From contig JANQNE010000010.1 in NCBI GenBank assembly GCA_028279725.1, positions 1-64,000 on the forward strand: a stretch of DNA of 64,000 nt, written 5' to 3'. A program made the translations under genes and the position numbers. The stretch comes from Candidatus Nanoarchaeia archaeon (GTDB lineage: Archaea; Nanobdellota; Nanobdellia; Woesearchaeales; JANQNE01). The notes beneath the pieces were generated by a model that did no database searches, had not been told where the DNA came from, and saw only the letters and a list, made by a program, of their open reading frames with translations. Below, in pieces: positions 9,704 to 21,138 of the stretch. How positions within the stretch are numbered: the first letter of the stretch is position 1; every line of letters begins with the position of its first letter.

Positions 9704-10189
9704 ATGCAAAAAAAAATCCCACAACTCAAAAAAAAGATATCTGGGTTTTTATCTAATGAACAGGGAACAATCTCAAAAAAATCAATAATGAAATTAGGTT
9801 TAATCACTTCTCTTCTATCAACTTCTACAGAAGATGTATCTGGGGGATCTGAAGAGTGCCATAACAGTGACGGAACAAATTGTGATCACCATGAAAGTTC
9901 TTCAGTAACACTCTCAAGCAGCACATATAATTTAGTAGATGCTGGGAACCCACCATCTGCCCACGCCAGTGATTCTTGCTCAGGTACACATTCAAATTCT
10001 TGGGCTGATGATTGTAGTTGTCATGCCAATGCCTCCACAGCAGACCACGCCAGCGATTCGAGCGGACATCACACCAATGATCTGGAGGTTGCTAAAAAAG
10101 GTACAGGTATAAAAGCAACCCATGAACATAATGTGGCGCATGCTTCACAACTCACAGGTACACCTAGCTCTCATTGTAGTTTATCATAG
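9704..10189 (+). CDS. HxsA-like His/Ser/Cys-rich putative RiPP precursor
   Basis: A 161-residue protein of unusual composition. Residues 1-45 are a Lys-rich helical leader (KISGFLSNEQGTISKKSIMK then LGLITSLLST). The remainder is dominated by His, Ser, Asp, Ala and Cys. It contains six His-X-Ser triplets, at His53, 63, 87, 115, 146 and 157, plus near-matches such as HSN and HAN, and six cysteines (52, 60, 92, 104, 106, 158). Repeated His-X-Ser is the signature of HxsA proteins, which are proposed substrates of the HxsB/HxsC radical SAM maturases. HxsD-like and HxsB-like genes lie immediately downstream. It has its own promoter. The modification and the mature product are unknown. Metal binding by the His/Cys core is an alternative role. 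Confidence 0.7.
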   Translation: MQKKIPQLKKKISGFLSNEQGTISKKSIMKLGLITSLLSTSTEDVSGGSEECHNSDGTNCDHHESSSVTLSSSTYNLVDAGNPPSAHASDSCSGTHSNSWADDCSCHANASTADHASDSSGHHTNDLEVAKKGTGIKATHEHNVAHASQLTGTPSSHCSLS

Positions 10190-10209: not shown

Positions 10210-10231
10210 AAAGATGAAGTTCTATTGATTG

Positions 10232-10687
10232 ATGGAAGATCTAAATAATCTTGGGAATCTAAAGATAAACAAAGCAGAAAATTACATATTTTTCTCTGTA
10301 AATCCATCAATATTTTCTTTAGAAGTAGTATATTCAGCAGCATATATTATGATAGACAAGGCATATATTTTTTTAGATGGGAATCCGAAAAGATCAATAG
10401 ATATTGAGATAAGAGCAAAGAAAGAAAATCAAGATCTAAAGAGATTAGCCTTGGAATTTAACAACGAACTAATCAATTATGCCAACTATAAACAACAAAA
10501 CAAGGAAAATAAAGAGATAAGGGAGATGATCCTACAAAGAGCTTTACAGACAAATTTAATCACTCCAGAATACACCGAAGGCAATATCAAGGATCCAAAA
10601 AACATCAAAGAGGCCTGGTCAGAAGATAAAAGACCAAAGAAGACCAAAAATGCAAATAAAAGAAAAACCAATAATAATCAAGCTTAA
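10232..10687 (+). CDS. hxsD: HxsD-like protein of the His-Xaa-Ser system
   Basis: About 151 residues. Residues 15-105 match the HxsD family as I remember it: a strand FFSVNPSIFSLEVVYSAAY, a Tyr/Leu-rich strand, an Ile/Glu strand, then RLALEFNNELINYANY and IREMILQRALQTN, which correspond to the family's EFxNELLNDYxLRE-type segment. HxsD is a small partner protein always found with HxsB and HxsC; its biochemical role is not established. The C-terminal ~40 residues are a Lys/Asn-rich low-complexity tail, and the last 38 bases overlap the next gene in another frame. No signal peptide is present, so it acts in the cytoplasm. Confidence 0.75.
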   Translation: MEDLNNLGNLKINKAENYIFFSVNPSIFSLEVVYSAAYIMIDKAYIFLDGNPKRSIDIEIRAKKENQDLKRLALEFNNELINYANYKQQNKENKEIREMILQRALQTNLITPEYTEGNIKDPKNIKEAWSEDKRPKKTKNANKRKTNNNQA

Positions 10688-10868
10688 TCCTTCTTTTTAT
10701 TCTAAAGGGGCAATATTACAGACTATTAAAGATTTTAGTTCTGTCTGCTCCTCTGATTTAGAGAAAAAAAGCAAATTTCTCATAACAATCAACCCAAAAA
10801 AAGGAATAGACAAAAATGAACTCGCACATGAATTCTGTAATTATTGTCTTGGTTTGATGAATCAGTAA
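10650..10868 (+). CDS. Short second HxsD-like protein
   Basis: A 72-residue protein starting inside the tail of the preceding HxsD-like gene. Its outline IIIKLNPSFYSKGAILQTIKDFSSVC … FLITINPKKGIDKNELAHEFCNYCLGLM parallels the HxsD core (strand–helix–strand, then EFxNYxLxL) without the C-terminal helix. I read it as a diverged HxsD paralogue that may pair with the longer one as a heterodimer, which is inference. Position and overlap imply co-transcription. Because the gene is short, an unrelated small protein cannot be excluded. Confidence 0.6.
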   Translation: MQIKEKPIIIKLNPSFYSKGAILQTIKDFSSVCSSDLEKKSKFLITINPKKGIDKNELAHEFCNYCLGLMNQ

Positions 10869-10936: not shown

Positions 10937-10944
10937 TTTATATT
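10937..10944 (+). promoter_or_regulatory. TATA box for the B12-type radical SAM gene
   Basis: TTTATATT lies 29 bases before the ATG at 10974. It overlaps the alternative TTG start at 10944, which argues against that start. Just upstream a small hairpin GTCTC-N6-GAGAC (10894-10909) follows a T-rich stretch and may help end the previous transcript. Confidence 0.45.
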
Positions 10945-10973
10945 TGCTGAAAAAACCTATCTCAGTTAAGATA

Positions 10974-12299
10974 ATGAAAAACATAACCTTATTTTGGCCA
11001 AATCTGATATTTAAAGAAAAAGGCAGAATCATCCCTTCTTTATTTTTAGCAAAATACTACGGGTTGCTGAAAGATGAATTCAATGTCTCCTGTGTAGAGA
11101 CATTTATGAGGGGGGGAATAAACAAAGCAGACTTTCTCCAAAACAAAAAAGAAATATCCAGAAAATTAGAATCAGACATAAGAAAGATAGAATCAACAAA
11201 TCCAGACATACTTTGCATTAGTAGCTGGACCTTGCTAAACTTGCCATACATATTGGAATTTTCAAGACACTTCAAAAAAAGAAACAAAGATGTAAAAATT
11301 ATCTTGGGAGGGGATGGTCCAACAAATTCACCGAAAAATCTTTCTACTTTAACAAAACATATAGATTTTTTTATAGTTGGCTGCGGAGAGCATGCAGTCT
11401 GCAAATTAATTAAAGATATAGTTAATAAGAAAAATATAGGCCAGAACATAATCCACATGAGGAATAGATTCCCCCCAATAAGTACAATTATCCCGGATTA
11501 TTCTGGAACCTTAGATGAGAACAGACATAAGATAATCCCTTTAGAAGGATCAACAGGGTGCACAAACAACTGCACATTTTGTTCCTCACAGAAGTGGATC
11601 AAAGGTCCCTATAATAAAGGAGTTGATACAATCATCAAAGAATTAAAACAATACATATCCAATTATAATATTAATAGATTTTTCTTTATAGACAATAATT
11701 TTACAGGCAACCCAAAGAACGCAGAGTTATTTTGTAGAATGCTTAAAAAAAACAAATTAGATATAAATTGGAGCTGCAGCTCAAGAACAGACACAATATC
11801 TCCTAGATTATTGAACTTGATGCATGATTCAGGATGCTATTCAATTTTCTATGGTATAGAAAGTCTAAATAAAAATACACTAAAATTAACAAAAAAAACA
11901 AAAGACCCTTCAAGATATATAAAGAAATCAAAAGAGATGATTAATTATTCAAGAGATCTCCTAGCTACTAAAGTGGAAGGAATTATTGGTTTTCCATGGG
12001 AGTCAAAAAAAGATATGTTAGAAACTGTGAGTTTTTTCAGGAATAACTGGAGCGATATTGCGTATATCCATACATTAATTGCAATCCCCGGATCAAAAAT
12101 ATGGAGATCATATTTAAATAAAGAATTAGAATTATTTGGATCAAAGATCCTCCACAATAATTTATTCTTTGAAAAATACAAGAACTTACCTTGGCTGGTT
12201 CCAACAGCCTGGAGAGTAAAAAACAAAAGAATGAATAATAAGGATCTTACTGATTTTGTCGAACACAACCAGGAAGTAAAAACCAAAGAATTTATATAA
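10974..12299 (+). CDS. B12-binding-type radical SAM enzyme
   Basis: About 441 residues. The N-terminal ~150 residues have the Rossmann-like outline of cobalamin-binding domains (LFWPN…IPSLFLAKYYG, then DILCISSWTLLNLPYI and KIILGGDGPTNSP, FFIVGCGEHA). The lower ligand motif DxHxxG is not visible, which is common in radical SAM relatives. The radical SAM core starts with C196-x3-C200-x2-C203 (CTNNCTFC) and continues through FFFIDNNFTGN, YGIESLNKNTL and EGIIGFPWES. Such enzymes often methylate unactivated carbons or modify peptides. Position between hxsD and hxsB suggests it tailors the His-rich precursor, which is inference. The TATA box supports the ATG at 10974 rather than the upstream TTG. 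Confidence 0.75.
   Translation: MKNITLFWPNLIFKEKGRIIPSLFLAKYYGLLKDEFNVSCVETFMRGGINKADFLQNKKEISRKLESDIRKIESTNPDILCISSWTLLNLPYILEFSRHFKKRNKDVKIILGGDGPTNSPKNLSTLTKHIDFFIVGCGEHAVCKLIKDIVNKKNIGQNIIHMRNRFPPISTIIPDYSGTLDENRHKIIPLEGSTGCTNNCTFCSSQKWIKGPYNKGVDTIIKELKQYISNYNINRFFFIDNNFTGNPKNAELFCRMLKKNKLDINWSCSSRTDTISPRLLNLMHDSGCYSIFYGIESLNKNTLKLTKKTKDPSRYIKKSKEMINYSRDLLATKVEGIIGFPWESKKDMLETVSFFRNNWSDIAYIHTLIAIPGSKIWRSYLNKELELFGSKILHNNLFFEKYKNLPWLVPTAWRVKNKRMNNKDLTDFVEHNQEVKTKEFI
12291..12298 (+). promoter_or_regulatory. TATA box for hxsB inside the end of the upstream gene
   Basis: TTTATATA, located in the last codons of the previous gene, ends exactly 22 bases before the hxsB ATG at 12321. There is no ribosome-binding site, so a leaderless start is predicted. 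Confidence 0.55.
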
Positions 12300-12320: not shown

Positions 12321-13730
12321 ATGAAACCACTAGATTTTAAGGGTAAAGACTATATATTAAACAATATTAGATTTAAGACATTAAGGGGGAAATATCTATT
12401 AACCACAGACACAGGGGCATGGATATTATTAAATAAGAGCGCATATTTAAATTTAAAAAACAATAAAATAAAAAAGCCATTGTTCAATCTTCTGGAAGAA
12501 AAAGGCATAATAATAACCAAAAATAATATTGAAAAAGTAGTTTCTGATCAAAGGGAGAGGCTAGATTTTTTATTTAGAGGAGCATCATTGCATATAATTC
12601 TCCCAACATTAAGATGCAACCATAAATGTGTTTATTGCCACAGCGCAGCGCAGGATGCAGACAAAAAAAAGTTTGATATGGATAAAAAAACTATAGACAA
12701 GACCTTAGATTTTATTTTTCAAACACCTGCAAAAGCAATAACTATTGAGTTTCAAGGTGGGGATGCGTTATTAAGAGCAGATTCATTCAAATACACAGTC
12801 CAAAAGGCCAAAAAGCTAAATAAAAAATTCAACAAGGATGTTTATTTTGCTTTAGTAACAAATCTTACGATAATGGATGAAAAAATAATGGATTTCTTGA
12901 AAAAAGAAAAAGTTAGGATATGCACATCTTTGGATGGGCCAAAAAAAATACATGATTTGAATAGGATATATACAGGCCACACATCATCATATGATGCGGT
13001 AACAAAAAATTTAAGACTACTCAAAAAAAACAAAATCCCTGTGTCTACACTAATGGTAACAACAAAACACAGTTTACCTCATTGGAAAGGAATAATTGAT
13101 GAATATGCCAAGTGGGGGTTCACTAGCATACAGCTAAAATATCTCAATAAATTAGGATTTGCAAAGAACACATGGGGGGAGATTGGTTACACTGTAGAAG
13201 AGTTTCTTGTTTTTTGGAAGAAAGCAGCAGACTACATATTAGAATTAAACAAAAAAGGAACTTATATTGAGGAGAGATATATCAAAATAATATTGATGAA
13301 AATCTTAAGTAAGAAGGACCCTGCATTTTTAGATTTGAGAAGTCCCTGCGGCATGGTTATTGGTCAGATGGCATACAACCATAATGGGGATATCTATTCA
13401 TGTGATGAAGGAAGAAACTTTGAATTATTTAAGTTGGGCAATGTAAAAAAAGACACATACAAAGGTATTTTATCATCGGAGAAATCACAACAATTAATTT
13501 CATCTTCAATAAATGATATACTGGTATGTGATAATTGTATCTACAAGCCATATTGCGGTCATTGTCCTGTGATGAATTATGCCGAGGAAGGAAATTTAAT
13601 CCCAAAATTACCTTCGAATTCAAAATGCAGATATCATAAATTTGCATTTGATTATGTTTTTGAAAAATTACTATTTGATAAGGAAGCAAGAAAAATATTT
13701 TTTAGTTGGATGAAGAAGAAAACAAAATGA
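12321..13730 (+). CDS. hxsB: HxsB-family His-Xaa-Ser radical SAM maturase
   Basis: A 469-residue protein, the usual HxsB length. Residues 10-80 form the family's N-terminal domain (FKTLRGKYLLTTDTGAWILL). The radical SAM cluster is C99-x3-C103-x2-C106 (CNHKCVYC). EFQGGDALL replaces the common GGEP motif, and VTNLTIMDEK and ICTSLDGPKKIHDLNR follow as in HxsB. The C-terminus has RSPCGMVIGQMAYNHNGDIYSC and YKPYCGHCPVMNYAEEG, a SPASM-type region for auxiliary iron–sulfur clusters, ending in CRYHKFAFDYVF. HxsB acts with HxsC and HxsD on His-X-Ser repeat proteins; the reaction is not known to me. It is the best-supported member of the locus. The next gene starts in its stop codon (ATGA). Confidence 0.88.
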   Translation: MKPLDFKGKDYILNNIRFKTLRGKYLLTTDTGAWILLNKSAYLNLKNNKIKKPLFNLLEEKGIIITKNNIEKVVSDQRERLDFLFRGASLHIILPTLRCNHKCVYCHSAAQDADKKKFDMDKKTIDKTLDFIFQTPAKAITIEFQGGDALLRADSFKYTVQKAKKLNKKFNKDVYFALVTNLTIMDEKIMDFLKKEKVRICTSLDGPKKIHDLNRIYTGHTSSYDAVTKNLRLLKKNKIPVSTLMVTTKHSLPHWKGIIDEYAKWGFTSIQLKYLNKLGFAKNTWGEIGYTVEEFLVFWKKAADYILELNKKGTYIEERYIKIILMKILSKKDPAFLDLRSPCGMVIGQMAYNHNGDIYSCDEGRNFELFKLGNVKKDTYKGILSSEKSQQLISSSINDILVCDNCIYKPYCGHCPVMNYAEEGNLIPKLPSNSKCRYHKFAFDYVFEKLLFDKEARKIFFSWMKKKTK

Positions 13731-15643
13731 CATATCTAGATTTAAAGTTAGGTTATGGTTGCAACAACAATTGCTTACATTGCGTAATCGCAGATCAAAG
13801 GGATACATGCAGATCAAAGGGTGTGGATACAGATAGGTCAACAGAAGAATGTAAAAAAGAATTGGTAGATAGTAAATCCAGAGGTGCAACAGAAGTAACT
13901 TTCACAGGGGGAGAACCAACAATAAGAGAAGACATATTTGAACTTATATATTTTGCAAAAAACCTAGGATATTCAATAAACATGCAGACAAATGGAAGGA
14001 TGTTTTATTATGAAGAGTTTACAAAAGCCATCTCAAAAAATTTGATTAGATCATTTGTAATAGCATTACACGGACCAAATGAAAAGACACATGATAAGAT
14101 AACAGAAGCAAAGGGAAGCTTCAAGCAGACTGTAGAGGGAATAAAAAATTTAATTTCATTAAAACAAACAGTTAGAGGAAAGATGGTCCTCTCAAAAATA
14201 AACTACAGACAACTTAAAGAAACAATAACACTCATGATAGAATTAGGCATTAAATCTATCTTTGTTGCATTCCCTCACGCACAAGGAAACGCAAGAAAAA
14301 ATTTTGATGTTATTGTCCCAAAATACTCTGAAATAATCAACTATGTGAAAGATTCAATAAAATTTTGTAAGAAAAAAGGCATAGAGATTTACTTTGAGGC
14401 TATTCCTTTTTGCTTTATGACAGGATATGAAGATCATGTATCAGAATTAAGAGACATCGGAATAAACTATAAAGAATTAAAACAGCTTGGTGAAAATAAG
14501 AAGAATTGGGCAGAAATAAGAAAAAAAATAAAAAGAAAATTCCCACAATGTTCATTTTGTGACTACACTCAATTATGTGAAGGCCCTTGGATGGAATATC
14601 CTGCGGCATTTGGAAATAAAGAATTTAGACCAGTCTACAATAAAAAGATAGATGAGATAAAAATAGAGCTCACTTATGGCTGCAATAGCCATTGTTATTT
14701 CTGTCAAAATAAGACAATTCCCACAGAAAAAAAACAACTAACAACAAAACAAATATTAAACCTACTAGATGATATAAAGAGGAATGACATAAAAAAAGTA
14801 AGATTCACAGGAGGAGAACCAACACTAAGAAAAGACCTCTTAGAGATCTTAGCATACGCCAAGAAACTAGGATTAATTGTAAAGCTTAACACAAATGGAA
14901 GATTTAACATTGATTATGCAAAGAAACTATCAAATCACATAGATGTGATACTTTTTTCTGTTCATGGAGACAATAAAAAATCAAACAAACAGATAACAAA
15001 AACACAGGATTTTGATAACAAAATTAAAATAATAAAATTTTTCTCAAGATCCAAGGTTCACACAGCATGCAACACCATAATGAACAAAGAAACGGTAAAA
15101 AATTTAAACAATTTTTTAAGATTAATGGACAAATTAAAGGTCCAAGATTGGTTTTTTTCACCCCAAGTACCAGTTCCTGGGGAAAAGAACTATTACTTAA
15201 AAAATAAAGAGATAGAGCTTATAGTGGAAAAGTTAATCAAGTATAACAAAAAACAAAAAACAACATATTCCATAGGAAAATGTGCAACAATTCCATTCTG
15301 CTCTTGCGATCCTAGAAAGATTTTAGATCTATATTCAGGAAAAGAAGCCGGGGGAAAGTTCTGTGGCCCAAACAACAGCCTAGTAGTTTCTCCAAAAGGA
15401 GATGTTAGGTTTTGTTACTCAATAAACAAAATGCTTGGGAATACACTAAAAAATAGCCTAAAAGATATCTTAGGCAAAAAACTACTAAACAAAAATCTAA
15501 GCCCTGCAGAATGCAAAGGTTGTTTGATGGAATTTATATGCAGAGGGGGCTGCAGGTTCACTGCAGAATCAATAAATGGAAATTTAACTTCATCACATCC
15601 ATTATCACAAAAAGAGAGATATAAAGATTTATTATTTCAATAA
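13727..15643 (+). CDS. Tandem radical SAM protein (two radical SAM modules)
   Basis: A 638-residue protein carrying two complete radical SAM modules. Module 1 has C12-x3-C16-x2-C19 (CNNNCLHC), FTGGEPTIRED and ALHGPNEKTHD. Module 2 has C319-x3-C323-x2-C326 (CNSHCYFC), FTGGEPTLRKD and SVHGDNKKSN. Module 1 ends with its own Cys group (CSFCDYTQLC) and module 2 with a SPASM-like CGPNNS…FC…CKGCLMEFICRGGC. Similarity of the halves points to an internal duplication and fusion. Neither half has the N-terminal domain of canonical HxsC. The ATG at 13727 overlaps the hxsB stop by four bases; the upstream TTG at 13706 is less likely. It is probably translated with hxsB and modifies the same substrate. Confidence 0.82.
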   Translation: MTYLDLKLGYGCNNNCLHCVIADQRDTCRSKGVDTDRSTEECKKELVDSKSRGATEVTFTGGEPTIREDIFELIYFAKNLGYSINMQTNGRMFYYEEFTKAISKNLIRSFVIALHGPNEKTHDKITEAKGSFKQTVEGIKNLISLKQTVRGKMVLSKINYRQLKETITLMIELGIKSIFVAFPHAQGNARKNFDVIVPKYSEIINYVKDSIKFCKKKGIEIYFEAIPFCFMTGYEDHVSELRDIGINYKELKQLGENKKNWAEIRKKIKRKFPQCSFCDYTQLCEGPWMEYPAAFGNKEFRPVYNKKIDEIKIELTYGCNSHCYFCQNKTIPTEKKQLTTKQILNLLDDIKRNDIKKVRFTGGEPTLRKDLLEILAYAKKLGLIVKLNTNGRFNIDYAKKLSNHIDVILFSVHGDNKKSNKQITKTQDFDNKIKIIKFFSRSKVHTACNTIMNKETVKNLNNFLRLMDKLKVQDWFFSPQVPVPGEKNYYLKNKEIELIVEKLIKYNKKQKTTYSIGKCATIPFCSCDPRKILDLYSGKEAGGKFCGPNNSLVVSPKGDVRFCYSINKMLGNTLKNSLKDILGKKLLNKNLSPAECKGCLMEFICRGGCRFTAESINGNLTSSHPLSQKERYKDLLFQ

Positions 15644-15644
15644 A

Positions 15645-17762
15645 ATGCAAAATGACCCGTCGATAGGACCAAAAACATTTCATCTACAATATCATATAAC
15701 TGATAACTGCAATCTAGATTGCAGCCATTGTTATGTGGGCCATAGAAGAAAAAAAGAACTAAGCACAGAACAGGCTTTAAAATTGATAGACAGGTACGCA
15801 GATATGTTAGATTTCTGGAAAATATCAGATAAAAAAAGCAAGATAACTTTCACAGGAGGAGAACCTTTACTTAGAAAGGATATTTTCAAGCTCATAAAGA
15901 GATGCAGACAACATGGCATAACTTCTGGTTTAATGACCAACGGAACAACCCTATCGGAAAACATAATAGAGAAATTAAAGGATTCCGGGTTAAAAAACAT
16001 ACAGCTGAGTTTAGAAGGGCTAAAAGATACAAATGATTTAATCAGAGGTGCAGGGGTTTTTGATTCCATAAGACAGGCAATAAAATTACTTAAAAAACAC
16101 AGATTCAAGGTAATAATCTCAACAACCATCCACAAGGGGAATTACAGATCTCTTTCAAGACTTATAGAATTTTGTCTTAAAGAGAAAGTAGATTCCGTAG
16201 GCTTTAGGAGATTAGTTCCATTAGGCAATGCGATAGAGATAAAGGACCAACTATTATCACCTCTGGAATTGAGAGACACATATTCAAAATTATCAGATTA
16301 CAAAACTAAATTAGAAAGTAAATTATCTGTTTCTCTTTGTTGTGAGGGATCACTCTTAGCAATAGAAGACAAAGATCACTTTAATCATTCACATTGTTCT
16401 GCAGGGATATCTAGCTACACAATACTCCCGGACGGAGAGATCATACCTTGCGCGACACTCCCAATACATCTAGGAAATGTATTATCTGATAATTTAATCT
16501 GTCTGTGGTACAGTTCAAGAGAATTATGGAAGTTAAGGAATATAAATAATTTAGATAAAAGATGCAGTAGCTGTCACACCATAAAAACATGCAAAGGGGG
16601 GGCCAAGTGTATAGCACATTCTTATTTTGGAGGCATATCTCATCCAGACCCTCAGTGCTGGTCGCTTTACAAGGAGCTTCCAAAGAAAAAAATAAAACTT
16701 CCAAATAAAAAAACCAATAAGCTAAAAATTGACCCTTCTCTTTATACATTATCCAATGGAAGATTAAAAAGACAAACTGAAGGAATTATAGTATCTGAAG
16801 AATTAATAAAACAAGATATAGATAAGGTGTTATCTAATAAATCAAAATTAGAAAAAATAAAGAAAATATTGTCGGAGAAATATGATCTAAAAGATATCTC
16901 TTCTATAAGGAAATTACATGAACATAATGCATGCATAATCGAAACAAGAACAAAGAAATATTTATTTAAAGAAAGGGAGGGGAAGATTGAACTAAATAAC
17001 TATGTTTTAGAATTTCTAAAAGGAGTAAAGATACCAAAAATAATAAAGACAGATAGAAACGCATGTTTAGATTATAGAGGAAAGAATTACATACTTTCAG
17101 AATACATTGAAAGCGAAAGAAAATACACTTTTGATGATTTGGAAAAGGTTACAGATATCTTAATCACATTACATCAAAATTCCAGAGATTTACCAAAAAC
17201 AAGAAAAGATATATTCTTTGCGATAAAGGAAAAATTAAAATATATATCTAGAGAGATAACTAAATCTCCAAACATAGATAAAGCTAAGAAAAATGTGTTA
17301 TTAAAACATACCGACGACTTAGAAAAAAAATTGAATAAAAAAACAATACATGGGATGGAACATTTTATCATACATGGGGATTTCAAGAAGACGAACTTAT
17401 TATTCTCAAAAAATGAAATTTATTTATGTGATTTTGACAGAACCAGACATCACCTAAAAATCTATGATTTAGCAATAGCTATTTGTTCGTTGTGCAGAAA
17501 AGATCCAGGTAACATACTGGAATTCGAACAACTAATAAGATTATTTGAGTTGTATTCAAAAAAAATAAACATAAACAAAACAGAGAGAGAACACATTTTA
17601 GATTTCTTAAGATTTTATATCCTGGAGCAGATAACATCAATCAACAACTTATCAAAACAGAAGAAGTTATCTATAATACTAAATAACTTAAGCCTGCTCA
17701 ACCAGATAGATAAAAATGAAGATAATTTGAGATTATTATTCAGGACAATAAATAACTCATAG
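15645..17762 (+). CDS. Radical SAM/SPASM–APH-type kinase fusion
   Basis: A 705-residue two-part protein. Residues 1-350 are a radical SAM/SPASM enzyme: C22-x3-C26-x2-C29 (CNLDCSHC), FTGGEPLLRKD, SLEGLKDTND and a C-terminal CSSCHTIKTCKGGAKC cluster region. After a linker, residues ~400-700 look like an aminoglycoside-phosphotransferase/choline-kinase fold. HGDFKKTN (H577-G-D579 … N584) is the Brenner catalytic loop and DFD (596-598) binds metal. The radical SAM half resembles peptide maturases, and the kinase half could phosphorylate the peptide or a small molecule. I know of no standard family with this fusion. It begins one base after the previous stop (TAA-a-ATG). The 3' end overlaps the convergent prepilin peptidase gene by six bases. 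Confidence 0.82.
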   Translation: MQNDPSIGPKTFHLQYHITDNCNLDCSHCYVGHRRKKELSTEQALKLIDRYADMLDFWKISDKKSKITFTGGEPLLRKDIFKLIKRCRQHGITSGLMTNGTTLSENIIEKLKDSGLKNIQLSLEGLKDTNDLIRGAGVFDSIRQAIKLLKKHRFKVIISTTIHKGNYRSLSRLIEFCLKEKVDSVGFRRLVPLGNAIEIKDQLLSPLELRDTYSKLSDYKTKLESKLSVSLCCEGSLLAIEDKDHFNHSHCSAGISSYTILPDGEIIPCATLPIHLGNVLSDNLICLWYSSRELWKLRNINNLDKRCSSCHTIKTCKGGAKCIAHSYFGGISHPDPQCWSLYKELPKKKIKLPNKKTNKLKIDPSLYTLSNGRLKRQTEGIIVSEELIKQDIDKVLSNKSKLEKIKKILSEKYDLKDISSIRKLHEHNACIIETRTKKYLFKEREGKIELNNYVLEFLKGVKIPKIIKTDRNACLDYRGKNYILSEYIESERKYTFDDLEKVTDILITLHQNSRDLPKTRKDIFFAIKEKLKYISREITKSPNIDKAKKNVLLKHTDDLEKKLNKKTIHGMEHFIIHGDFKKTNLLFSKNEIYLCDFDRTRHHLKIYDLAIAICSLCRKDPGNILEFEQLIRLFELYSKKININKTEREHILDFLRFYILEQITSINNLSKQKKLSIILNNLSLLNQIDKNEDNLRLLFRTINNS

Positions 17763-18800
17763 TAGGTTCAAGCTCCCCTTCAATATTAAAGTAAGTAAAA
17801 CTCCCAGAAACAAAAATAACGCAAAAGGAACCTCTTGCTGTACAAAAACATATTTGTTCTTTATTTTCTTGCGTTTGTACAGATCCTTTATTTTTGCGAT
17901 GTCTTCTTCAGTAAGACCCTCCACCTTTAAATTATTTACATAATAACCTTTCCTGAGGTTTATCCTCACTTTTTCTATGTACTTTTTCTCAACAAGAACC
18001 ATCCCAGGTTTAAGTTTCCTTACATTGATCTTAGTTTGGAATAATGAACCAAGATCATTTATCATAAATATAAATAACCCATAGGCTGTAGTCATTAATA
18101 TGAACTCCCTAAGGAACCCAGCAGTCAGAATATATTCTCTGTTAAAGAACACCCTGGACAGGGACAGAACAACCATGATTAAGTTTATTTCATTAGGCCA
18201 GATTTTTCTTAATAAGTGTTTTATTGCCATTATTGCAAACATATTCAGTACTATATTTGTCCTTACGCCAAAATATACAAACAAATAGTGGGTTATCCAT
18301 GATATGCTGAATATTGTCAGCAGATAATTTCCAATTCTCTTTAAGTTAAAAGAATTCTTGATAACTTCAACTTTTTGCTCTTTGCTTGTCTTTACAAGCA
18401 AATAGATAACAAGAACAACGAACAGAGGAACAAAGGTATTTATCAATATCCCTAATGGATGAAAACTTGTAGAATTTTTTTGATAAATTGAGAGTGGAAT
18501 CAAAGAAACATATGCAGTAAATAGTTTGGCATCTCCTGCAGACCACAGACCAAACATATAAAGAAAGACCCCGATAACAAAACTGAAAAAAACAAATGTG
18601 CCTAATTTTACCCCATATTCTACCTCAGTGATCCCCAAGGAGAAAAGAATAACATGCATCACAAGTGATACTATCAGCGCAGTTATGATCCATTTATTTC
18701 TTATCTTCTTAGTTTTGATATCTTGATAACTAGTCACAATGCCTAACAATACAATAAATGGAAACATAAACCACAACAGATTCATGGCTAGACAATACAT
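17757..18800 (-). CDS. A24 family prepilin/preflagellin peptidase
   Basis: A 347-residue polytopic membrane protein. The first catalytic Asp lies in SYQDIKTKKIRNKWI (D27), the usual position after the first transmembrane helix. The second is in LWSAGDAKLF (D90), the GxGD-type motif of aspartic class III signal peptidases. Six or more hydrophobic helices are seen, plus a soluble segment at about 250-320 before a last helix. The enzyme cleaves class III signal peptides after the charged residue, and the window holds eighteen such substrates, so it is the likely processing enzyme. Two ATGs are possible (18800 and 18785). The first lies 29 bases from a TATA box shared with the divergent archaeosortase gene. 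Confidence 0.85.
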   Translation of the reverse strand: MYCLAMNLLWFMFPFIVLLGIVTSYQDIKTKKIRNKWIITALIVSLVMHVILFSLGITEVEYGVKLGTFVFFSFVIGVFLYMFGLWSAGDAKLFTAYVSLIPLSIYQKNSTSFHPLGILINTFVPLFVVLVIYLLVKTSKEQKVEVIKNSFNLKRIGNYLLTIFSISWITHYLFVYFGVRTNIVLNMFAIMAIKHLLRKIWPNEINLIMVVLSLSRVFFNREYILTAGFLREFILMTTAYGLFIFMINDLGSLFQTKINVRKLKPGMVLVEKKYIEKVRINLRKGYYVNNLKVEGLTEEDIAKIKDLYKRKKIKNKYVFVQQEVPFALFLFLGVLLTLILKGSLNLL

Positions 18801-18859: not shown

Positions 18860-20326
18860 ATGAAAAAGATGGGTTTAATTAAAAAATACTTGTTATTCAC
18901 ATTCTCTTCATTAATGTCAACTTCTTTGCTTATGTTTTTTTCCATCAGATCAAAAACCACATACGGATTTTCTTCTATCTTTTACTTACAAAAACCGATA
19001 ATAATATTTATTGCTTTTATAGGGGTTGTATTTTTATTAATCCGACATAAGACTAAAACCACAAACAGAACAGTAAACGCCCCCTTGTTGTTGATTTCTT
19101 TATTACTGTTCTCTCTTTCATTCTATATTTATGGAGACATAAATAAAGTCTATAATGAAGGAGTATCAATAAAATCCAGTCAACTGATAGATTCTCCCGG
19201 AAAAATAGATCTGGATAGTTCATCCCTTCTCTCTATTCCTTTATTGACAGGAATCAGACAATCTTATGATTCTTTTATTTTTGGAGAGGGAAAAATAAAG
19301 AAAATATTAGATATGGGGGAGATCCAGGAAGAAACTATTTTGACTTTTCACACATTATGGCAAGATGCGCCCTTATCGAAAGACCCAGATTTAATTTTCC
19401 AATCAATGGACGACAACCAATTAAATAAAGATCTAAAAGTATTCTTATCAATAAACAACAGATCCTTTGATATCTCAGATTCTTACAAAGATCTTCCAGA
19501 AGATAAAGGTAAATGGATAAGCATAAAGATTCCAGGAAATAACTTTTTAGATGGAAAAAATGAAATAATAATCTCAACAAAGAATAACTCAGACCTCTTA
19601 AGGTTTTCCGGACAGGTGGTATTCATGGAAGGAAATACATTCAAATTTGATAATGAGGGTTTCTGGGAAACAGAAATCACAGAGATGGCATTGTTCTTAA
19701 ATCGGGAAAATCCATTTTGGTTTTCTTTATTATTCAAATTTTCTTTCATATTGAAGATAGCCGCACTTATTCTATTTTTATTTGCTTTTTTCAACAAAAA
19801 AATAATAACAAAAATAATAAAAAACAATAAGAAAGAAATCATATACTCCATACTGGCTTTATTGATCCTATATTACCTGTCTTTATTTATACAATCCCAA
19901 TGGCAGTTCCTTTCAAGATTTGTTGCCTATTCTATCTATTTTTTACTCAAGATTTCATTCTTGAATCCATCAGTGAATATTAATGATTTGTCTGCCCCAT
20001 TAGTTGGTCTAAATAATTTCTCTGTAGAGATAGCAGATGTTTGTTCTGGAGTAGAAAGCCTGATCTATTTTTTAGTAGCTTATTCTTTGCTTTTGTTGAT
20101 CCATTGGAAACACATAAACTTCAATAAAGCATTAGTTCTTTTCATCCCCGGAATCATTGGCGCAGCTCTGTTGAACATCTTTAGAATTTATTTTTTAATC
20201 TTGATCGGTTCTTTCTTTTCAAAACAGTTAGCATTAAACTTATTTCATTCTGTTTCTGGAATGCTTATTTTCATAATATATTTCATAATATTCTGGCCTT
20301 TAGCTTTAAAATACATAGAAAAATAA
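18860..20326 (+). CDS. Archaeosortase/exosortase family protein
   Basis: A 488-residue multi-pass membrane protein. The C-terminal ~190 residues carry the exosortase/archaeosortase catalytic triad: Cys395 in ADVCSGVESL, Arg442 in NIFRIYF, and His463 in NLFHSVSGM. All lie near membrane helices as in the family. The N-terminal half has two or three helices and an extracytoplasmic domain (about 90-280), longer than in typical family members. Archaeosortases cut C-terminal PEF/PGF-type sorting signals and transfer the protein to an anchor. The convergent next gene encodes a protein with just such a C-terminus, with no spacer between the two stop codons, so the pair is probably dedicated. The promoter suggests a leaderless mRNA. 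Confidence 0.85.
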   Translation: MKKMGLIKKYLLFTFSSLMSTSLLMFFSIRSKTTYGFSSIFYLQKPIIIFIAFIGVVFLLIRHKTKTTNRTVNAPLLLISLLLFSLSFYIYGDINKVYNEGVSIKSSQLIDSPGKIDLDSSSLLSIPLLTGIRQSYDSFIFGEGKIKKILDMGEIQEETILTFHTLWQDAPLSKDPDLIFQSMDDNQLNKDLKVFLSINNRSFDISDSYKDLPEDKGKWISIKIPGNNFLDGKNEIIISTKNNSDLLRFSGQVVFMEGNTFKFDNEGFWETEITEMALFLNRENPFWFSLLFKFSFILKIAALILFLFAFFNKKIITKIIKNNKKEIIYSILALLILYYLSLFIQSQWQFLSRFVAYSIYFLLKISFLNPSVNINDLSAPLVGLNNFSVEIADVCSGVESLIYFLVAYSLLLLIHWKHINFNKALVLFIPGIIGAALLNIFRIYFLILIGSFFSKQLALNLFHSVSGMLIFIIYFIIFWPLALKYIEK

Positions 20327-21115
20327 TTACTTTCTTTTATACAATACAGTTGGTATCAAAACAGCACCAACCAAAGCGATCATCGCAGTCATAAGAGAAA
20401 ATTCAGGTATTTCATTCGCATCCTTACATGTCATATCATCTATACAATTCTCAGTATATTCAATTTCCTGATCTATCCCACCTATACAAGTCATATCATC
20501 ATCATTTCCTGGAGAACAGGTACAACCATCAATATCATTGCAAGTTGAGCCATCCACTAAAGCTGTTTTTGCCCCATCCATACAACCCCCACCATGAGTT
20601 GTTTCACTATTGCAGGGCCTACTTGTGTACACTTTCCCCCCGTGTGTTGTACTTGAACTCGCAGGCAGACAATAATTACCTGAAGCCCTTCTATAAACTA
20701 TATTGCCACAGAGACAATAAACAGAACTCCCCCCATAAGTTGTAGCTCGGTTAGGGTATGTTGATGAAGTTTCCCCACAGAGCTCTACAGTTGTAGTTCC
20801 GCAAGTAATAAATAAATCACTACTACAAATAATGGCATTACCTTCACACTTCTGTCCAGGATTACATCCTGCAGTGTTTTGATTATCACTTTCACTACAC
20901 GAATCAACAACCTCATAAGTATGCACCGCATCACTTGTACAGATATCTCTCCATTGCTGGGTATTGCCATCATAAGAATACACACAATCAGCAGTTTTAG
21001 TTTCTTTACAGATCTTGGCAGTAGCTTCAGTTGGAGCCACAACACCAATAACACTTACACTACTCAATACAAAAATAATTAAAACAAGAATTATCATAAC
21101 TCCTCTTTTTTTCAT
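20327..21115 (-). CDS. Cys-rich secreted protein with PEF-type sorting signal
   Basis: About 262 residues. The N-terminus KKRGVMIILVLIIFVLSSVSVIGV is a signal peptide. The mature part is rich in Cys, Thr, Ser and Gly with many short loops, so it is probably disulfide-stabilised. The C-terminus is a short NEIPEFS motif, a hydrophobic helix and a terminal YKRK. That tripartite layout is the PEF-CTERM archaeosortase signal, and the archaeosortase gene lies tail to tail with it. I place the start at the ATG at 21115: a TTTAAATA box lies 23 bases upstream, so the TTG at 21133 is unlikely. The domain function of the mature part is not recognised. Confidence 0.8.
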   Translation of the reverse strand: MKKRGVMIILVLIIFVLSSVSVIGVVAPTEATAKICKETKTADCVYSYDGNTQQWRDICTSDAVHTYEVVDSCSESDNQNTAGCNPGQKCEGNAIICSSDLFITCGTTTVELCGETSSTYPNRATTYGGSSVYCLCGNIVYRRASGNYCLPASSSTTHGGKVYTSRPCNSETTHGGGCMDGAKTALVDGSTCNDIDGCTCSPGNDDDMTCIGGIDQEIEYTENCIDDMTCKDANEIPEFSLMTAMIALVGAVLIPTVLYKRK

Positions 21116-21138
21116 ATTGCTTTTAATTTTCAATTGTA

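Follow-up and report, generated by a model that had tools for sequence, protein, structure and literature searches.

Within the window, the whole 64,000-nucleotide stretch of contig JANQNE010000010.1 that was analysed, one protein joins a radical SAM/SPASM half to an APH-fold kinase half. Judged from sequence and predicted structure, both halves keep their catalytic motifs within the single chain, and the gene lies amid a run of His-Xaa-Ser (Hxs) genes. Comparison with several related archaea shows that their Hxs loci, too, pair APH kinases with radical SAM domains, with different partners and in both orders. The Hxs system is known, and the kinase is a component outside its named parts. The reading preferred here, to which a probability of about 0.5 is given, is that the fusion would be an accessory bifunctional maturase of an Hxs RiPP-type system, in which the kinase acts on Ser and Thr residues of the precursor peptide.

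The fusion gene is a single frame from ATG to stop, 705 aa long and without internal stop, and no N occurs anywhere in the window sequence. Pfam places the domains in the order Radical_SAM (2.1e-26, 93.5 bits against a cut-off of 29.5, residues 17-176), SPASM (3.7e-7, 30.8 bits, cut-off 21.5, residues 251-311) and APH (PF01636; 5.6e-7, 30.0 bits, gathering cut-off 23.2, residues 461-624). The features of the gene are the following:

15645..17762, forward strand: radical SAM/SPASM-APH fusion, 705 aa (frame and Pfam)
15645..16679, forward strand: radical SAM/SPASM half, residues 1-345 (Pfam, AlphaFold, Foldseek)
15708..15731, forward strand: CxxxCxxC motif CNLDCSHC, with C22, C26 and C29 (sequence, 17-row alignment)
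16395..16658, forward strand: SPASM region holding eight Cys, residues 251-338 (Pfam, sequence)
16845..17759, forward strand: APH-fold kinase half, about residues 401-705, modelled as 376-705 (Pfam APH, AlphaFold, 2ppq fold)
17373..17396, forward strand: catalytic loop HGDFKKTN, residues 577-584 (sequence, 18-kinase alignment)
17430..17438, forward strand: metal-binding DFD, residues 596-598 (sequence, 18-kinase alignment)

Cysteines 251, 269, 286, 307, 310, 316, 322 and 338 lie within and beyond the SPASM match, and C22, C26, C29, C307 and C310 are invariant in the 17-row alignment of the radical SAM half. The kinase half carries YLFKE (Lys442) and shows the features of the APH superfamily, namely HxDxxxxN, the metal-binding Asp and, in prediction, the kinase fold; H577, D579, N584 and D596 are the sole invariant columns among 18 aligned kinases. 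We assume the customary catalytic or metal-binding roles for the CxxxCxxC, Lys442, HGDFKKTN and DFD motifs of the fusion.

The two halves were folded apart, because a full-length alignment set the kinase rows against the radical SAM half; it was discarded. AlphaFold gave the radical SAM half (residues 1-360, 17 alignment rows) a pLDDT of 85.5 and a pTM of 0.86, and the kinase half (376-705, 18 rows) a pLDDT of 84.7 and a pTM of 0.83. The top Foldseek matches of the former are PqqE, SkfB and SuiB, from which it differs by an identity of only ~20% and by its attached kinase, their solved chains of 312-440 residues being too short for one. The kinase model best matches homoserine kinase 2ppq (Foldseek 6.4e-13; Z 25.2, rmsd 3.1 over 290 residues), other matches being N-acetylhexosamine kinase (Z 24.0), E. 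coli YihE 1zyl (Z 20.1) and amicoumacin kinase. The APH fold is shared with 2ppq and 1zyl, but the identity is 14-18%, and both are solved single-domain enzymes of 310-325 residues. The original prediction had described one protein with a CxxxCxxC/SPASM half and a kinase half with intact motifs, and on this the frame, Pfam, the alignments and AlphaFold agree; the structure prediction that it had proposed for both halves returned a kinase fold with no sign of its loss.

The neighbouring genes of the window are as follows:

9704..10189, forward strand: HxsA3-like precursor, 161 aa, with the common leader and a Ser-, His- and Cys-rich core (NF038309, 23.3 bits, cut-off 65)
10229..10687, forward strand: HxsD (TIGR03976, 61.9 bits, cut-off 50)
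10650..10868, forward strand: HxsD-like protein (NF038315, 62.2 bits, cut-off 41)
10944..12299, forward strand: B12-binding radical SAM protein (Pfam/NCBIfam; matches in 14 of 67 Hxs loci)
12321..13730, forward strand: HxsB radical SAM/SPASM maturase (TIGR03978, 448.5 bits, cut-off 370)
13706..15643, forward strand: tandem double radical SAM protein, HxsC/HxsC4-like (NF038332, 185.6 bits; TIGR03977, 145.3 bits)
17757..18800, reverse strand: archaeal prepilin peptidase, EppA-like (Pfam Peptidase_A24; matches in 50 of 67 Hxs loci)

Judged by sequence, these genes form a His-Xaa-Ser system of RiPP type, carried by a DPANN archaeon, because HxsB, HxsD and the HxsD-like protein exceed their NCBIfam cut-offs and the precursor shares the Hxs leader. 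The peptide-modifying locus of the original prediction, which had not named the system, is in this way identified. The Hxs system (HxsA, HxsB, HxsC, HxsD) is credited to Haft and Basu in an excerpt of PMC9062424, and the window resembles it in the three proteins just named, in its HxsA3-like precursor and in its HxsC4-like protein. It differs in the added kinase, in a precursor that falls under the HxsA3 cut-off and whose core has six H-x-S triplets, none in tandem, and in an HxsC-like protein that is a tandem double and lies under both cut-offs (185.6 against 500 for HxsC4, 145.3 against 267.9 for HxsC). One base separates the stop of this tandem frame from the ATG of the fusion, the genes being nearly contiguous.

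A leader profile built from eight precursors, the window's included, matched the window precursor at 1.1e-20, a value obtained with this sequence in the profile, and 47 frames at E <= 0.001 in the Hxs loci examined; in 42 of these frames, one or more His-x-Ser triplets follow the leader. Many HxsA leaders run from a basic stretch through K-x-G into a hydrophobic segment, and with this pattern and the prepilin peptidase so frequent a neighbour, HxsA may be processed like a prepilin. Beyond the peptidase gene, an archaeosortase-like gene at 18860-20326 (Pfam Exosortase_EpsH 6.5e-15) faces a protein at 20327-21133 that ends in PEFSLMTAMIALVGAVLIPTVLYKRK, a tail that we take to be sorting-signal-like. 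Two candidates were set aside: this archaeosortase as an Hxs component, with no phmmer match in 67 Hxs loci, and the B12 radical SAM protein as a partner of the kinase, with no match in six other kinase loci.

The occurrence of such kinases was surveyed from HxsB. At E <= 1e-50, 67 places were obtained in 61 of the 352 genomes of the order, and further places outside it (G387, G352, G339 and G529) brought the total to 71 places, spread over 65 genomes; at several (G339, G007 and others) the match lies below the family cut-off. The DNA round all 71 was scanned with a kinase profile, many stretches being shortened by contig ends, and the loci of the window, G496, G497, G220, G303, G387, G049 and G529 were inspected frame by frame. 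APH kinases were found at seven of the 71 places, as eight genes (one each in the window, G496, G497, G220, G303 and G049, and two in G387), all with an H-G/N-D-x4-N motif. The rows of the profile include all eight, so that their scores are not independent; by Pfam APH, which is independent of the profile, seven of the eight exceed the cut-off and G049 is under it (18.4 bits). An APH kinase with the HxD motif was not found at 64 of the 71 places; the kinase is thus dispensable to Hxs chemistry in general, a point against the preferred reading. Five weak profile rows from four other sources have no H-G/N-D-x4-N motif, and the two largest of them were looked at more closely and left out of the count. 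One, of 285 aa, adjoins the HxsB-like gene below cut-off in G339 and has a weak profile match (17 bits), no Pfam match and no HxD motif. The other, the 1,085-aa frame of G007, is of Pkinase type (2.4e-35; APH only 24.1 bits) and lies at L085 4312-7566, ~2 kb from an HxsB-like gene under the family cut-off. On another contig of the same genome, a run in one direction (L240 2887-8602) holds, downstream of a stand-alone APH kinase, a protein closely related to the SPASM half of the window fusion and further frames, which we take to be a DegT-type aminotransferase, a small PqqD-like protein and two U32-like proteins.

In a wider scan of HxsB contigs, covering the best 80 of 499 relatives with Omnitrophota, Patescibacteria and Elusimicrobia included, kinases with the HxD motif occurred only in records of G496, G497, G049, G387 and G303, one more kinase match among those 80 (E 0.031) being without it. 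The related Hxs loci come mostly from Woesearchaeota, Nanoarchaeota or other DPANN records, and some are bacterial. One Hxs contig of 37,978 bp, JAFCCF010000004.1 (L167), is titled Candidatus Aminicenantes bacterium and equals in length a contig of G043, which is placed in the archaeal order; either the title or the bin may be wrong.

Fusion to a radical SAM domain is seen in five of the eight kinase genes and takes three forms. In the window, a SPASM radical SAM half precedes the APH domain. In G496 and G497, which belong to the same genus, a short HxsC-like radical SAM domain precedes it (APH 1.9e-16 and 2.4e-18; HxsC model 8.5e-13 and 2.9e-11, respectively), the Radical_SAM match reaching 32.8 bits in G496, over the cut-off of 29.5, and 26.7 in G497, under it. 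In G387, from another order and with short His-x-Ser precursors, two paralogues have the reversed arrangement, APH followed by an HxsC-type radical SAM domain (APH 2e-10 and 8e-18; Radical_SAM 8.6e-27 and 1.3e-26; HxsC model 2.2e-31 and 3.3e-30). The kinases of G220 (APH 5.1e-11) and G303 (APH 1.6e-6) stand alone, and in G049 the frame of a weak APH protein (0.0019) shares 14 bases with that of a radical SAM/SPASM protein. Close orthologues of this last SPASM protein were confined, among the Hxs loci examined, to G049 (599 bits) and G220 (554 bits), the next match reaching 89.5 bits; the profile was built from the sequences of these two themselves. The closest Hxs-locus relatives of the window's SPASM half (L066 4986-6677, L067 10221-11897 and L073 3215-4897) have a Cys-containing C-terminal stretch of ~200 aa in place of the kinase. 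In G497 (L109 1700-5503), the first ~60 codons of the radical SAM part are present three times, two of the copies being truncated and adjoining genes that presumably resemble toxin-antitoxin parts.

Since the fused partners differ and the order is reversed, at least three joining events are argued for, whatever the kinase tree. In that tree, the best topology requires the Hxs label to change twice, while the strongly supported branches alone require a single change; with many branches open and several rows very long, these sequences point neither to one origin nor to several. This recurrent and varied joining suggests that phosphate transfer and radical chemistry cooperate on one peptide. The pairing of kinase and radical modification put forward in the original prediction is borne out by fusions in other Hxs loci, and the domain-architecture search that it had proposed, carried out in related genomes, found radical SAM-APH fusions in three further genomes.

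These fusions also bear on whether the window gene might be an assembly chimera of two genes. GC falls from 0.358 in residues 1-345 to 0.267 in residues 401-705, a single assembly of the species was found, and among the matches listed in a comparison of the whole protein with 60 relatives, both halves were spanned by the window protein alone, the same SPASM-APH pair occurring in no other protein among the matches listed. Set against this, GC3 is similar (0.319 vs 0.279), the gene sits inside a 214-kb contig of a 1.42-Mb genome of 12 contigs, and the frame stays open through the join, with no sign of the frameshift that the original prediction had named as a refuting result. An artefact is very improbable because radical SAM-kinase fusions exist in three other genomes. 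Viral contigs searched with the window and G496 fusions gave no relative.

The statistical weight of the association differs between fusion and proximity. At E <= 1e-14, the kinase profile gave 95 matches in 73 of 371 genomes of the phylum, with up to six candidates scored per genome. Frames longer than 450 aa made up three of the five related kinases in Hxs loci (622, 624 and 724 aa) vs 0 of 90 elsewhere (longest 442), a contrast with a Fisher P of 7e-5, to be taken with caution because the two genes of G387 are paralogous and these sequences are themselves among the profile rows. Among the APH matches listed for 63 Hxs genomes, 17 other long kinase-like frames at 19 chosen places had no radical SAM match; a radical SAM frame adjoins one of them (L236). 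As for proximity, eight APH matches were found in 0.99 Mb of Hxs-locus DNA vs 2.2 expected (Poisson P 0.002), the expectation being taken from 201 matches, among those listed, in about 89.6 Mb with rounded genome sizes. The P value becomes 0.008 without the window and 0.026 when the G387 pair is also merged; with the Pkinase-type frame of G007, excluded from the main test, the count is nine vs 2.2 (P 0.0005). Co-location of kinase and Hxs genes by itself thus exceeds the chance expectation only modestly.

Neither tandem runs nor core length established a precursor signature of the kinase. The longest tandem HxS/T run had a median of 1 in eight kinase-locus precursors vs 2 in 39 others (P 0.057), and core length gave P 0.31. 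The Ser+Thr fraction of the core is the same with the kinase (0.238) and without it (0.237), which counts against action on these residues. Cysteines appear more numerous in kinase-locus precursors, at 3.75 per core vs 1.74 in the others.

A kinase in a RiPP locus has a precedent in class V lanthipeptides, where, according to the abstract of PMC9486802, the phosphate that the APH-like CaoK places on Ser/Thr of CaoA is eliminated by CaoY; that abstract mentions no radical SAM enzyme. On this model, Ser/Thr phosphate in the Hxs precursor would be eliminated by an unrecognised lyase and the radical SAM enzyme would then form crosslinks, a route for which the CaoK/CaoY precedent and the apparently higher Cys content speak. 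The seven kinase genomes, several of them 80-90% complete, gave no match to HopA1 (PF17914, at E 0.01), the lyase type of the class V pathway, nor to LanC (PF05147); because of this, lanthipeptide-style dehydration is not supported and is considered improbable, and the same absence in all seven counts against the preferred reading as well. A variant that needs no separate lyase is regarded as unlikely: the attached radical SAM half would use the core phosphate, which might for instance leave from a carbon-centred radical, to form crosslinks or unsaturation. Kinase and radical enzyme would then be one catalytic unit, of repeated origin among DPANN archaea.

The kinase half could instead phosphorylate a small molecule, such as a sugar, a nucleoside, an amino acid or an amino alcohol, for later attachment to the peptide or for use elsewhere, the radical SAM half acting on the same molecule. 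Small-molecule kinases are the majority of its top fold matches, homoserine kinase and N-acetylhexosamine kinase being the best, and this weighs against a peptide substrate, with the reservation that a fold cannot tell the substrate. The same direction is indicated by the G007 run, where an APH kinase lies upstream of the aminotransferase-type frame and the SPASM-half relative, by the frame adjoining the kinase-locus precursor of G303, which we take to be a DegT-type aminotransferase and which also counts against the preferred reading, and by presumably glycosyltransferase-like frames ~3-4 kb from the kinase in G049. The Hxs context, with its precursor, HxsB and HxsD, speaks against this role, as do the fused partners in G496, G497 and G387, which match the HxsC model; in a non-systematic look at the frames inspected, no common attaching enzyme was noticed. 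On balance, a small-molecule substrate is held to be rather doubtful. APH enzymes inactivate antibiotics through phosphorylation, and with amicoumacin kinase among the fold matches, the kinase might stand outside the peptide chemistry and have a regulatory or protective part, as in self-immunity, by phosphorylating the maturase, its product or some target in the cell. Repeated fusion to radical SAM domains in both orders is more readily explained by joint catalysis than by a free-standing immunity enzyme, and a regulatory or protective role appears distinctly unlikely.

For the accessory bifunctional maturase, the following course can be proposed. The precursor at 9704-10189, with its shared HxsA leader, would be brought to the complex, where the kinase half would transfer phosphate from ATP to Ser/Thr of a core rich in Ser, Thr and His, in the manner of CaoK and CaoA. 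Hydrogen would be abstracted from the same core by the radical SAM half, together with HxsB and the tandem HxsC-like enzyme, both reactions being held on one peptide by the fusion. The phosphate may remain in the finished product or may ready sites for the radical chemistry, and the adjoining prepilin-type peptidase may remove the leader at export. Phosphorylation of the precursor is plausible by this analogy, and from it we infer that the Hxs radical maturases have as their partner a peptide Ser/Thr kinase of APH type.

The original prediction had regarded the family as one not described. Open-access full texts yielded none combining radical SAM, aminoglycoside phosphotransferase and RiPP; the Hxs system itself was already known. 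The literature consulted on that system, the excerpt of PMC9062424 included, yielded no report of its chemistry or product, which is not proof of absence. In this setting, the repeated fusion of kinase and radical SAM domains in Hxs loci, in both orders, offers a concrete clue to Hxs chemistry, namely phosphate on the precursor. If this is true, radical SAM peptide maturases would gain phosphoryl transfer as a partner activity, and an APH-type RiPP kinase would be placed in archaea.
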